Shown here piece by piece: positions 2,398 to 7,694 of a stretch of 39,129 bases of DNA (position 1 is the stretch's first letter; every line of letters begins with the position of its first letter). A model generated the notes under the pieces. That model worked only from the letters and a program-made list of their open reading frames with translations. It was not told the origin of the DNA and searched no databases. A program made the position numbers and the translations under genes. The DNA lies in the NCBI GenBank assembly GCA_016872495.1, contig VGZT01000021.1, positions 1-39,129 on the forward strand. The letters run 5' to 3'. Origin of the DNA: SAR202 cluster bacterium (GTDB taxonomy: Bacteria; Chloroflexota; Dehalococcoidia; Lucifugimonadales; Lucifugimonadaceae).

Positions 2398-2425
2398 TCT
2401 GGGTCTTGCTGAGGGCGCCTGTCAG

Positions 2426-3505
2426 CTAGCGCCGGGTTGCCGCCCGGGCCCCCGAGGCCCGTCCATTATTGGACGCACCCTCGGCTGCCGAGCAGACGGT
2501 CTCGATGATCAGCCGCGTGACCACGTACGGGTCGCAGTTTGCGTTCGGGCGGCGGTCCTCGATGTAGCCCTTCTGGTCCTTGTGTACCTGCCAGGGGATA
2601 CGCACCGAAGCGCCACGGTGGGACACGCCGTACGAGTACTCGCGGAACGAAGCGGTCTCGTGGTGGCCGGTCAGGCGTTCCTGGATGCGATCGCCGTAGT
2701 TCGCGATGTGCAGATCGTGGCGCGTCTTGAGCGCCTCAGCAGCTGCGACACACGCCTCGTAGTTCGCGCGCATCCTGGCGGTCGAGAAGTTCGTGTGGCA
2801 GCCCGCGCCGTTCCAGTCACCCTTGACCGGCTTCGGGTCCAGCTTGGCCGATACACGATTGCCTGACTTGAGCGGGAAGTCCTCGGCGGTTCGGTACAGC
2901 AGCCACCGGGCGGCCCACAGCTGGTCGCCGACCTCAGGCGCAGCGACCGGGCCGACCTGGAACTCCCACTGTCCGGGCATCACCTCGGCGTTGATGCCGG
3001 AGATCTTGAGTCCCGCCTTCAGGCAGTTCTCGAGATGAGCTTCGACGACGGGTCGGCCGAACACTTCATCCGCTCCGACGCCGCAGTAGTAGCCGCCTTG
3101 CGGCGCTGGGAAGCCATTGTCGGGCCAACCGAGCGGCTTGATGCCGTCGAAGAAGGTGTACTCCTGTTCAAGGCCGAACCAGGTGTCGTAGCGCGCGAAC
3201 TTCTTGGCCATCTCGCGACAGGCGGCGCGGGTGTTCGACTTGTGCGGCGTGCCGTCGACCAGCATCACTTCCGCGATCACCAGCTTGTGCGGCTCGCCCC
3301 GGATCGGGTCGTCGCAGACGAACACCGGCTGCAGCACACAGTCCGATCGGTCGCCGGTCGCCTGCTGCGTGCTCGAGCCGTCGAATCCCCAGATCGGGGG
3401 CTCTTCGCCCTCGGGAACGACTTTTGTCTTGGAGCGCAACTTCTTGGTCGGCTCCGTGCCGTCGATCCATATGTATTCGGCCTTGTAGGACGTGTACCGG
3501 GGCAT
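2426..3505 (-). CDS. glnII: Glutamine synthetase type II (GSII)
   Basis: It makes glutamine from glutamate, ammonia and ATP in the cytoplasm. At 359 residues it matches the shorter GSII (eukaryote-like) class rather than the roughly 450-residue or longer GSI. Seen directly: GFDGSSTQQA near residues 40-49, metal-ligand glutamates in GLEQEY (113 and 115), INAEVMPGQWEFQ near 171-183, NGAGCHTNFST near 232-242 (His 237) and the HHETASF and SVRIPWQV active-site stretches. I chose ATG 3505 over an upstream in-frame start because GGAGAA sits 6 nt before it and the protein then begins at the usual GSII N-terminus. The last 20 or so residues are a basic Ala/Gly/Arg tail. It has its own terminator and a candidate promoter, so it looks monocistronic. 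The absence of GSI from the rest of the genome cannot be judged. Confidence 0.95.
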   Translation of the reverse strand: MPRYTSYKAEYIWIDGTEPTKKLRSKTKVVPEGEEPPIWGFDGSSTQQATGDRSDCVLQPVFVCDDPIRGEPHKLVIAEVMLVDGTPHKSNTRAACREMAKKFARYDTWFGLEQEYTFFDGIKPLGWPDNGFPAPQGGYYCGVGADEVFGRPVVEAHLENCLKAGLKISGINAEVMPGQWEFQVGPVAAPEVGDQLWAARWLLYRTAEDFPLKSGNRVSAKLDPKPVKGDWNGAGCHTNFSTARMRANYEACVAAAEALKTRHDLHIANYGDRIQERLTGHHETASFREYSYGVSHRGASVRIPWQVHKDQKGYIEDRRPNANCDPYVVTRLIIETVCSAAEGASNNGRASGARAATRR

Positions 3506-3562
3506 GCTTGTTCTCCATGTCACAGGTGGGTCGAGGCCAGGAAAGCACCCTCAAAACTGCCA

Positions 3563-3591
3563 AGTTTACTGTGGGACAGTCTCGATTGAAA
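3563..3591 (-). promoter_or_regulatory. Candidate sigma-70-type promoter for glnII
   Basis: On the minus strand, TTTCAA (3591-3586), a 17-nt spacer and TAAACT (3568-3563) fit a weak -35/-10 pair, leaving a leader of about 50 nt before the ATG. The prediction rests on motif match and position only. Confidence 0.35.
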
Positions 3592-3596
3592 CATCC

Positions 3597-3860
3597 CGGT
3601 CCAGCAACGAGGTTTCACCTGGGTAACAGAAGTGTGTCGAAAGTGTTTCACGGCGGGGTGTAGGATGGGGCGCCGTCGCCGATCCCGAGAGCGGCCTCGC
3701 TTTCGGCCTGACCAAGAGCCGCCTGAACGTCGTCACCGGCCCCGCGACGGCGACCGCCAAAGTAATCGCAGACGAGGTCCGCTCGCTGCACGGGATACAG
3801 AACCAGCAATACCAAGGAGAGGCGCCGGTCCGGCTCGGCCGGGAGGCGCATACAGGATGA
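3597..3860 (+). pseudogene. Frameshifted C-terminal remnant of a beta-lactamase-family serine hydrolase
   Basis: Read in the frame ending at TGA 3858-3860, the segment from about 3657 gives GVGWGAVADPESGLAFG, then a SRLNVV segment and a helical tail (AKVIADEVRSLHG). This resembles the end of class C beta-lactamase/EstB-type hydrolases, where a G-H-G-G-x-G-G stretch precedes a conserved ADPE-GLAFG strand. Just upstream, a different frame encodes VFHGGV and then hits TAG at 3661, so homology appears to cross a frameshift. The N-terminal part with the SxxK nucleophile motif is absent: the minus-strand glnII start region lies directly upstream. The remnant stop overlaps the next ATG as ATGA (3857-3860), suggesting it was once the upstream operon partner of the MR/MLE gene. 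Family recognition is from memory of the motif. Confidence 0.6.
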
Positions 3861-4984
3861 AGATCACCGCAATCCGCCCGTGGCTCGTGAAGACGAAGAC
3901 CTCTTACTGGGGAGAACTGATATTCGTCGAAGTGTCGACGGATGAGGGGATTACAGGCTGGGGCGAGGTCACCAGCACGTTCCCCGCCGCCAACCGCACC
4001 GTCTGTTCGACGATCACTCACCTCTCCTCGGTGCTGGTGGGCGAAGACCCCACGAAGATCGAACGGCTCTGGCACAAGGCGTTTCGGGTGTTCACTTACA
4101 TGGGTTCTCGAGGCGCGTCGACGCACGCCATCAGCGGGATCGACATCGCCCTCTGGGACATCCTCGGCAAGTCGCTCGGGAAGCCGATTCACGCCCTGCT
4201 TGGCGGAGCCGTCCGCGACTCCGTCGACCTCTATACACACCCGGGCCGCTACACGACGCCGAAGGAGGCCGCGGCAGAGGCGAAGCTGATCAAGGACTCG
4301 GGTCATATGGCGCTCAAGATGGACCCGTTCCCGCAGATGCCGGAAGAGAAGGACGGCTACCTGAGCGGCAAGATGACGGGCGAGGCGGAGGACAGGGCTG
4401 CCGAGACGATCGCTGCCGTACGCGCAGTCGTAGGCCCGCACATCGAGATCCTGATCGATGCCCACGGGCGATTCGATGTGCCAACCGCAATCAGGCTGGC
4501 GAATCGCCTTGCCGAGTACAAGATCGGCTGGTTCGAGGAGCCGGTGCCGGTCGAGAGCTACCATGCGCTGCGGCAGGTCAAGAACCAGCTCAAGGTGCCG
4601 ATCTCGGTGGGGGAGCGCATCCACACGCGCTGGGAGTTCATTCCGATCTTCGAGAACGAGCTGGCCGATTACGTCATGCCGGACGTGACCTGGACCGGTG
4701 GCATCTCGGAGCTCAAGAAGATCTCGACGATGGCGGAGGCCTACTACGTCCCGGTGTCGCCGCACGACGCCAGCGGCCCGATAAACGTGCTGGCAGGCGC
4801 TCATGTCATGATGACGGTGCCGAACTTCTACCGGCTCGAGACGTCACGCTACAAGCTCGACGCCTACGACGTGTTCATCGACGAGCCGTTGAACATCAGG
4901 TCGGGCAAGCTGATCATGCCGGAACGTCCCGGACTGGGCATTGAGATGAATCGCGAGTACCTGGCAGCAAACACGGTCAAATAG
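3857..4984 (+). CDS. MR/MLE enolase-superfamily enzyme, galactonate-dehydratase-like
   Basis: This is probably an acid-sugar dehydratase acting by metal-assisted proton abstraction. The N-terminal capping domain (roughly 1-120) is followed by a TIM barrel with metal ligands Asp201 (DAHGRF), Glu227 (WFEEP) and Glu253 (VGERI). His203, two residues after the first ligand, and His303 (SPHDASGP) are the likely general acid/base pair. The spacings D-x-H, +26, +26 and +50 match what I recall for E. coli D-galactonate dehydratase, so a galactonate/mannonate-type dehydratase is the best guess, with the substrate unproven. 375 residues, normal length. ATG 3857 has GGAGG about 10 nt upstream and overlaps the stop of the hydrolase remnant. 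The acetamidase homologue follows after 10 nt, so the two are very likely co-transcribed. Confidence 0.9.
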   Translation: MKITAIRPWLVKTKTSYWGELIFVEVSTDEGITGWGEVTSTFPAANRTVCSTITHLSSVLVGEDPTKIERLWHKAFRVFTYMGSRGASTHAISGIDIALWDILGKSLGKPIHALLGGAVRDSVDLYTHPGRYTTPKEAAAEAKLIKDSGHMALKMDPFPQMPEEKDGYLSGKMTGEAEDRAAETIAAVRAVVGPHIEILIDAHGRFDVPTAIRLANRLAEYKIGWFEEPVPVESYHALRQVKNQLKVPISVGERIHTRWEFIPIFENELADYVMPDVTWTGGISELKKISTMAEAYYVPVSPHDASGPINVLAGAHVMMTVPNFYRLETSRYKLDAYDVFIDEPLNIRSGKLIMPERPGLGIEMNREYLAANTVK

Positions 4985-4994
4985 GGGCAAGGAC

Positions 4995-5954
4995 GTGAAG
5001 CACGAAGTCGAGGCGAAGACCTACTACCGCACTTTCTCGCGCGCGCACCCGGTGCTCGCGAAGATCAAGCAGGGCGACAGCGTGAAGACACGTTGCGTCG
5101 ACAGCGGCGGCCAGGACTACAGGGGCGAGCACAGGTCCGAGCCGGGCAACCCGCTCACCGGCTCATTCTTTGTCGAGGGCGCCGAGCCCGGTGACACCCT
5201 TGCGGTGCATTTCGACCGTGTGCGCTGCAACCGCAACTGGGGCTACACGTCGTACCGGCTTGGCCTTTTCGCGCTCACCCCGGACACGGTAGAGACAATC
5301 TACTCGGACAATTACAAGCAGGACCTGGTCCGCAAGGGCCGGGCGAACATCGTCCCGTGGGACATCGACCTCAAGTCGCTCAGGGCCCGCTTGAGGGAGC
5401 CATCGCCGAAGGCGGTGAAGCTGGAGTTCGACGTCAGGCCCATGCTCGGATGCGTCGGCGTGGCGCCCGCGGGCGACTTCGCTCCGACGTCCGGCCCGTC
5501 CGGTTCCTACGGCGGCAATATCGACTATAACGAGATCGTGGAGGGAGCTACCGTGACCCTCCCGGTCTACCAACCCGGCGCGCTGCTATTTGTCGGCGAC
5601 GGTCACGCGGTGCAGGGCGATGGCGAGTCCCTCGGGACCGGTATCGAGACCTCGATGGACGTCGAGTTCACGGTCCAGGTGAGGAAGGGCGTGGCGCCAG
5701 CGGGGCCACGAGTGGAGAACGGCGAGTACGTCATCTCGGTGGGCAGCCAGCCAGAGTTCGCAAGCTCGCTTGATCGTGGGCTCCAGATGGCAACCAGTGA
5801 CATGACGAAGTGGCTGAACCAGGACTACGGGCTCGAGTTCTGGGAGGCCCACCTGCTGATAGGCATGGTCGGCCGCTACGACGTGGTGACGGTTGCAGGG
5901 TCGATGGCGCTTCGGGTCCCGAAGAAGCACCTGCCTGCGAAAAAGACCGCCTAA
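4995..5954 (+). CDS. Acetamidase/formamidase family protein (FmdA/AmdA)
   Basis: The family hydrolyses short amides to acid and ammonia. Seen directly: the early GDSVKTRCVDS segment, a GSFFVEGAEPGDTLAV block, CNRNWGYTSYRLG, and the very characteristic GDGHAVQGDGESLGTGIETSMD block near the middle of the C-terminal half. 319 residues, typical length, with no signal peptide. The start is GTG 4995 with AAGGA 5 nt upstream. It lies 10 nt behind the galactonate-dehydratase-like gene, which suggests the two act on one substrate or pathway, perhaps a sugar amide or a lactam-derived amide. That link is inference from position. The 3' end interlocks with the stop of a small minus-strand gene. Confidence 0.9.
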   Translation: MKHEVEAKTYYRTFSRAHPVLAKIKQGDSVKTRCVDSGGQDYRGEHRSEPGNPLTGSFFVEGAEPGDTLAVHFDRVRCNRNWGYTSYRLGLFALTPDTVETIYSDNYKQDLVRKGRANIVPWDIDLKSLRARLREPSPKAVKLEFDVRPMLGCVGVAPAGDFAPTSGPSGSYGGNIDYNEIVEGATVTLPVYQPGALLFVGDGHAVQGDGESLGTGIETSMDVEFTVQVRKGVAPAGPRVENGEYVISVGSQPEFASSLDRGLQMATSDMTKWLNQDYGLEFWEAHLLIGMVGRYDVVTVAGSMALRVPKKHLPAKKTA

Positions 5955-6259
5955 CGTCGCTGTCGGCCCTCCGACGCTACCGTTCGAGACATCAACGGCG
6001 GGGGCTTCCTGTTCTGCTTGCAGCGTGCGCCCACCGGGCCGTGCCGAATAACCGCTTCGATGAGAACCGGGCAGGACTGGATCACCCCGGTTCCGCGCTT
6101 GCGTCGAGCGGCGCGCTTGAAGCGCTGCTGGAAACCCTTGCCGGGGACAGTAACGCGCATCCAAAGCATGACCGCGCCGGCGAGCAGCAACCCATTCGCG
6201 ATCAAAGCAGCGCTCATGCGGTCGCGCAGCTGAGGTAGACGTTCCCGGGTGGTCATCAT
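5951..6259 (-). CDS. Putative small membrane protein, 102 residues
   Basis: I recognise no family. One hydrophobic segment (about residues 16-38, including ALIANGLLLAGAVMLW) could be a membrane helix. The rest is strongly basic, with a run of Arg/Lys after the helix that would stay in the cytoplasm, and two cysteines in the C-terminal half. The main support is the start: two consecutive ATG codons at 6259 preceded by AGGGAGGT at good spacing (about 6 nt), one of the best ribosome binding sites in the window. Its stop overlaps the stop of the convergent acetamidase gene. The basic, proline-rich C-terminus is shadow-like, so the frame could be spurious or only its first part real. Confidence 0.45.
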   Translation of the reverse strand: MMTTRERLPQLRDRMSAALIANGLLLAGAVMLWMRVTVPGKGFQQRFKRAARRKRGTGVIQSCPVLIEAVIRHGPVGARCKQNRKPPPLMSRTVASEGRQRR

Positions 6260-6521
6260 CGCCAGACCTCCCTCGTCATGAACTCTACGCCAGGGCGCCG
6301 TCGAGCAACGTCATGGCAGTGGTACCACTCGACGCACTGGCAGCAGCAAAAACGCGCCGTGAACGAACGGATGCCGCGCAGGCCCGAACCTCCGGCGCCT
6401 TCCTGTCTGTTCATGCCGGCTGGCTGACCTTCAACTGAACCTCCGGAGCTCTGGAAATCCGGGCCGATGATAAGCTACCGCCGCATTCACGGCGTCACTC
6501 AAGCAGGGACTTCCAAACCAC

Positions 6522-7694
6522 ATGAAGATCACAAAGATCGAAACGATCACGGTCTCCAACGGATTCACCCCGGCCCGGCCCTGGCTTTTCTGTGCCATCC
6601 GCACCGATGAAGGACTGACCGGCTACAGCGAGTTTGGTTCCGACCACATCACGCACGGCCTGATCGGCCTCGTACAGGACCTGTCGGGGCTGCTCATTGG
6701 CCAGGACCCTACGTCGGTCGAGAAGCACTACATGAACATGTACCGGCAGACCCGGCAGGCGCCTTACGGGGCTACCCAGCAGGCGATCGCGGGCATCGAG
6801 CTTGCGCTGTGGGACATCGCCGGCAAATCAAGAGGGGTGCCGGTTCACAAGCTGTTCGGGGGTCCGACCCGCGAGAGCCAGCGCGTCTACTGGTCGCACC
6901 TTGCGACCTACCGGCCGGCCAACTGGAAGCTCCTCGGAGTGAAGCCGATCAAGACGATGGCGGACCTGGCCGACGCGGCAAAGGAAGCGCCAGCGAAGGG
7001 GTACACCGCGTTCAAGACCAACATCATATGGCCCGGGGACCCGGCCAGGGTCATCAGCCAGGGCAGGGAAGGTCCGCACGACCAGCTGGCGACGCGCGAG
7101 ATTCGGAAACAGGCGATCGCACAGATCAAGACGATGCGTGACGCGGTCGGGCCGGATATCGATATCCTCCTCGATATCAATGTGAACTTTAAGCCCAACG
7201 AGGCGATCACCCTGGCGCAGGAGCTCGAGCCGTACGGCCTCTTCTGGCTGGAGATCGACAACCAGAGCCCGGAAGCGCTCAGGCAGCTGAAGGACTCGAC
7301 CCGGACGCGTATCTGTTCGGGGGAGCAGTTGCTCACCGCCCGCCAGTACAAGCCGTTCTTCGACCACATGGCCATGGACAGCGTGAAGGTCGACGTGCAG
7401 TGGCAGGGCTTCTCGGTCGCACGGCGCGTGGCCGACCTGGCCGAGATCTACGAACTCAACATTGCTCCGCACAACTACAACGGACACCTGAGCTCCTTCC
7501 AGAGCGTCAACCTGACCGCAACCGTGTCGAACGTGCGGATCATGGAGAGCGATCCGGAGCAGACGCCCTACCGCGATGAGCTGTTCACGGTGTTGCCAGA
7601 GGTGAACAAGAGCTTCATGAAGGTGCCGACCGGACCGGGTTGGGGCACCGAACTGAACGAGGCCGCGGCGCGCAAGTACCGCTACAACGGCTAG
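6522..7694 (+). CDS. MR/MLE enolase-superfamily enzyme, subgroup unassigned
   Basis: A second, clearly different enolase paralogue of 390 residues. Metal ligands are visible as Asp218 (LLDINVNF), Glu244 (FWLEIDNQ) and Glu268 (CSGEQ), with a conserved His317 in APHNYNGH. Lys165 in AFKTN lies at the strand where mandelate racemase-type enzymes carry K-x-K or K-x-H, but the second position here is Asn. There is no His two residues after the first ligand, so this is not the galactonate-dehydratase subtype of the paralogue at 3857. A racemase, epimerase or acid-sugar dehydratase is possible. Start ATG 6522 has only a weak AGGGA about 13 nt upstream. An M19 homologue follows after 23 nt and an M81 homologue after that, forming a probable three-gene operon. 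Confidence 0.9.
   Translation: MKITKIETITVSNGFTPARPWLFCAIRTDEGLTGYSEFGSDHITHGLIGLVQDLSGLLIGQDPTSVEKHYMNMYRQTRQAPYGATQQAIAGIELALWDIAGKSRGVPVHKLFGGPTRESQRVYWSHLATYRPANWKLLGVKPIKTMADLADAAKEAPAKGYTAFKTNIIWPGDPARVISQGREGPHDQLATREIRKQAIAQIKTMRDAVGPDIDILLDINVNFKPNEAITLAQELEPYGLFWLEIDNQSPEALRQLKDSTRTRICSGEQLLTARQYKPFFDHMAMDSVKVDVQWQGFSVARRVADLAEIYELNIAPHNYNGHLSSFQSVNLTATVSNVRIMESDPEQTPYRDELFTVLPEVNKSFMKVPTGPGWGTELNEAAARKYRYNG

Follow-up and report, generated by a model that had tools for sequence, protein, structure and literature searches.

A truncated serine hydrolase remnant beside glnII in a SAR202 genome, the probable scar of a chromosomal rearrangement

A puzzling gene-like stretch separates the glutamine synthetase gene glnII from an MR/MLE gene on contig VGZT01000021.1 of a SAR202 cluster bacterium (the window, by which we mean the whole stretch of 39,129 nucleotides that was analysed). 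We propose, with a probability of about 0.8, that this stretch is explained by truncation: a serine hydrolase gene would first have stood upstream of the amidase gene, as it does in G002, a genome of the same genus, and a chromosomal rearrangement would then have cut it, bringing glnII and its control region against the final ~40 codons of the hydrolase gene. Nine-tenths of that gene, on the 5' side and with the nucleophile region included, would have disappeared from this genome, and the 3' end of the stub would now provide the ribosome-binding site for the MR/MLE gene that follows; both the order and the mechanism of these events we infer. The locus is a real but ordinary scar of rearrangement between genomes of the same genus, reflecting normal genome fluidity. 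The features concerned are as follows.

54-1661: GMC oxidoreductase gene, on the far side of glnII from MR/MLE1
2426-3523, minus strand: glnII, type II glutamine synthetase (NF041605, 601.5 bits against a cut-off of 500)
3612-3649, minus strand: putative GlnR-type operator made of four half-sites of 5 bases that recur every 11 bases, at -144 to -107 relative to the glnII ATG
3650-3677, no strand: presumed breakpoint interval, from the glnII operator-like repeats to the start of the hydrolase homology
3675-3860, plus strand: what is left of the C-terminus of a PF00144-family serine hydrolase (homology over 3678-3797, TGA at 3858-3860)
3857-4984, plus strand: MR/MLE1, an intact MR/MLE (enolase superfamily) sugar-acid dehydratase-like gene of 375 aa
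4995-5954, plus strand: intact acetamidase/formamidase-family gene of 319 aa (PF03069)
6522-7694, plus strand: MR/MLE2, a further MR/MLE gene, sharing 86% identity with the G002 counterpart downstream of the amidase and used as a synteny anchor

Identity and state of the remnant

The frame of the remnant reads VADPESGLAFGLTKSRLNVVTGPATATAKVIADEVRSLHGI... from 3675, with ADPESGLAFG... encoded from 3678 onward, and after the homologous part it runs for 20 codons without counterpart in relatives before reaching its TGA. The homologous stretch contains no stop codon. Upstream, the frame is open as far as a TAA at 3624-3626 (that is, over 3627-3857), with no ATG, GTG or TTG between that stop and 3857.

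The family of the stub emerges from comparison with intact relatives. Against 76 genomes of its family, tblastn with the stub returned two relatives besides the window itself, G002 (E 1.4e-8, 55%) and G008 (1.5e-6, 49%), and both matches are the C-terminal ends of intact 381-aa proteins; across 250 genomes of the order the stub has matches at E<=0.001 in four, its own genome counted, and nothing matched among plasmids. A frameshift-aware alignment pairs 3678-3797 with residues 340-379 of the G002 hydrolase at a score of 109, where 20 control stretches of the window score 47 or less. The two sequences share 25 of 40 residues, and nine columns (A340, D341, P342, G349, T351, K352, P361, A366 and R374) are invariant across the stub and six intact relatives. 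These comparisons lead us to see in 3675-3857 the final ~40 residues of a serine hydrolase of the beta-lactamase/esterase family, in agreement with the first-pass annotation, which had recognised a beta-lactamase-family tail and noted the absence of its nucleophile region. In the G002 protein the SxxK nucleophile motif is the STTK at residue 62, and the stub corresponds to residues 340-379 only.

Pfam did not contribute to this assignment. No family was returned at E<=10 for the stub, for a longer frame-1 version or for a two-frame version joined with X, and the stub does not reach the PF00144 profile cut-off. The first-pass annotation had named a PF00144 search as its check and the lack of a hit in either frame as its refutation; read literally, that is the result, but the search is a poor test, because the PF00144 match of the intact 381-aa G002 relative (245.8 bits) covers residues 10-350, and the stub lies almost wholly past that part.

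Over the 40 codons compared, the stub differs from G002 at 11, 9 and 24 sites at codon positions 1, 2 and 3 (dN 0.31, dS 1.75, from 40 codons only and with dS near saturation), and the genes of the two intact proteins, set against each other over these 40 codons, give a similar picture, with differences at 11, 6 and 29. This pattern suggests that the divergence of the stub may mostly predate the truncation and arose for the most part while the gene worked, so that the cut would be relatively late and not the start of a long decay. Since the substitutions still look constrained, the stub is probably better called truncated than decayed, the word first applied to it.

The same codon-position pattern (11/9/24) would also fit a peptide started from CTG or ATC, and the open frame ends in ATGA; hence one may ask if the stub is a functional short leader whose translation is coupled into the MR/MLE gene through this overlap. 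We consider this highly improbable, given that the common start codons are absent from the frame, that the short frame is not conserved across the 250 genomes, and that an RBS-like GGAGG (3842-3846), which falls within the remnant, stands directly 5' of the MR/MLE ATG. The truncated stub, having no start codon, is most likely untranslated. Its TGA (3858-3860) overlaps the MR/MLE ATG (3857-3859) by 4 bases in a different frame, and the two are thus adjacent, not fused as had been stated. The MR/MLE frame itself is open back to a GTG at 3632, which yields a spurious 450-aa ORF (3632-4984), and owing to this open frame gene callers may place the dehydratase start too early. The stub should not be annotated as an enzyme, nor should the MR/MLE gene be extended 5' into it.

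The upstream edge and the glnII control region

The first-pass annotation had drawn the hydrolase tail from 3597, with a frameshift near 3660, as the decayed leading gene of an ancestral operon of hydrolase, dehydratase and amidase. A gradually decaying pseudogene of this kind is, in our judgment, quite unlikely. The second frame before 3660 does read FHGG, resembling the F-G-H-x-G of the family one base off register. We aligned 3590-3677 to family profiles anchored at ADPE, with one frameshift allowed at a cost of 8. With a profile of 24 broader relatives, the second-frame reading FHLGNRSVSKVFHGG was equalled by 20 of 500 shuffles and 8 of 500 other window stretches, a borderline result; with a profile of the six close relatives it did no better than chance, being equalled in 180 of the 500 shuffles and in 151 of the 500 window stretches. 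Most of the bases concerned form the glnII operator-like repeats, and no stop interrupts the homologous stretch. The supported homology thus begins at ~3675 and the frameshift is not borne out; because the other-frame residues coincide with the repeats at 3612-3649, the breakpoint of the truncation would lie at ~3650-3677.

On the glnII strand, 3649-3612 reads GAAAC-n6-GACAC-n6-GTTAC-n6-GAAAC, upstream of a glnII start that is either the ATG at 3505 or the GTG at 3523, and the gene is divergent from the stub. In the 39-kb window the pattern GWNAC-n6-GWNAC matches only at 3612-3649. Among the 30 glnII loci (those of the 34 glnII matches that have loci, the window's own included), 16 carry the two-half-site pattern in the 350 bases before the glnII start, where 0.45 would be expected from first-order resampling; the background, measured over 587,583 bases from other loci with overlapping ones kept, is 0.012 per equal-sized stretch. 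The carriers include the window, L100, L101 and L105-L112. The half-site pattern alone is weakly specific, since across 40 genomes the triple pattern gave 67 matches against 40 for a reversed control pattern, and it is the position before glnII or amtB that counts. In a hand-picked, non-random set of 12 triple-site loci that leaves out glnII sites, the site immediately precedes genes for ammonium transporters (amtB, PF00909) in six. Most likely, then, the 3612-3649 repeats belong to glnII as its putative operator, and they point to GlnR-type nitrogen control in this order of Chloroflexota, a subject for which a literature survey at listing depth returned nothing relevant.

A candidate GlnR of this genome, as judged from its sequence, is an OmpR-type protein with a PF00486 domain and no receiver-domain match in Pfam (L190, G000:C24:5793-6017). 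Among PDB entries it matches 8hih, 8hig and 8hml best, which we take to be GlnR structures; a literature search on these three identifiers gave unrelated matches only.

The rearrangement would have set the MR/MLE and amidase genes next to this divergent, putative GlnR-type operator, and one may envisage promoter capture, through which the ammonia-releasing amidase would have become nitrogen-regulated along with glutamine synthetase. We regard this outcome as unlikely, if worth naming. No GlnR-type operator was seen on the G002 amidase contig, and the promoter of the MR/MLE gene cannot be placed, as no sigma-70-like promoter was found in 3480-3900.

Gene order in relatives and the fate of the hydrolase

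In G002 (contig JACQUF010000097.1), an intact hydrolase gene (327-1472) is directly followed by the amidase gene (1555-2499, 77% identical to that of the window), with no MR/MLE gene between them. A metallo-beta-lactamase-fold gene follows, within the interval 2503-4036 of L079, then the MR/MLE2 counterpart (4040-5206, 86%); in the window, the space between amidase and MR/MLE2 amounts to 567 bases (5955-6521), and no close copy of the metallo-beta-lactamase-fold gene is present. It had been suggested earlier that relatives might keep the intact gene before the dehydratase; an intact gene does exist, but it precedes the amidase. The absence of a dehydratase from this position in G002 also speaks against the decay of an ancestral three-gene operon, which is unattested. 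We compared 16 amidase loci (L079-L094, G002 included), drawn from those at ~60% identity or more, and found no close relative of MR/MLE1 near the amidase in any of them, only distant MR/MLE proteins (24-30% identical to MR/MLE1) in three. Among these amidase loci the placement of the MR/MLE gene, with the stub on one side and the amidase on the other, is peculiar to the window, and the gene has therefore either been inserted here or been lost in G002. Because the stub has matches in so few genomes of the order, the polarity of the gene order rests on one congener, G002, which is 61% complete.

In two further genomes of the family, G023 and G004 (loci L132 and L134), relatives of MR/MLE1 (69% and 66%, respectively) adjoin relatives of the GMC oxidoreductase (56% and 53%); in the window these two genes are split by glnII. 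In the congener G001 an FAD oxidoreductase lies upstream of glnII, and in G008 an AMP-ligase does (names given by eye from the ORFs). From these gene orders, the glnII-amidase region appears to be a mosaic. The differing neighbours of glnII support the rearrangement that the first-pass annotation had suspected, and its further statements that the hydrolase abuts the divergent glnII and has lost its catalytic part likewise hold.

The assembly is a draft of 102 contigs, and the adjacency of glnII and the hydrolase tail is absent from G001 and G008, as would be expected if an assembly or binning misjoin had brought together sequences that are not neighbours in the living genome. We rate such a misjoin as very unlikely, since no long repeat at the junction recurs elsewhere in the genome (the best one spans 29 bases at 86% identity, or 18 bases exactly), G+C stays at 0.59-0.67 in every 300-base bin over 2401-6000, and both flanks have their relatives in the same genus (88% to the G001 glnII on one side; amidase and MR/MLE2 to G002, at the values given above, on the other).

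The remainder of the truncated hydrolase was sought in its own genome. A close copy of the missing body was not found in the 102 contigs of the draft, which is rated 98% complete, and at E<=1e-30 the G002 hydrolase finds nothing closer there than a 34% paralogue. The pseudogene criterion is an intact orthologue in a relative together with none intact in the gene's own genome, and this is what we find: intact in G002, none intact here. One locus, G000:C39:1297-2336, was considered as the missing body and rejected, as its pieces share only 30-34% identity with the G002 hydrolase and the locus ends in a C-terminus of its own with an AFADPEHG strand. This locus (L136) holds a PF00144 hydrolase split over two frames and divergent from two MR/MLE genes, and is either a frameshifted pseudogene or the product of a sequencing indel. 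Elsewhere, G154 carries two intact tandem hydrolases of the same subfamily (L177, 5465-7977). A contig search with the G002 hydrolase returned only G002 itself and a 31% Amycolatopsis match, and is uninformative on gene order.

Comparison with known systems

The PF00144 family comprises SxxK serine hydrolases of the class C beta-lactamase and EstB-type esterase kind. The stub can be aligned to the strand and helix at the C-terminus of intact relatives (L022, L023, L056, L057 and L140); unlike the enzymes of this family, it has no SxxK, no Tyr region and no start codon, and it is not an enzyme.

Actinobacterial GlnR binds half-sites in an a-b-a-b arrangement, gTnAc-n6-GaAAc-n6-GtnAC-n6-GAAAc (PMC10704036). 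The repeats of the window resemble this operator, as given there, in that four half-sites of 5 bases recur every 11 bases upstream of glnII, with similar repeats before amtB in relatives, and differ from it in the order of the half-sites, GAAAC, GACAC, GTTAC, GAAAC.

With truncated gene remnants at rearrangement junctions the locus shares a 3' fragment, an intact copy in a congener and a junction that falls in a divergent intergenic region; it differs from them only in the closeness (0-28 bases) of the cut to a regulatory operator-like site.
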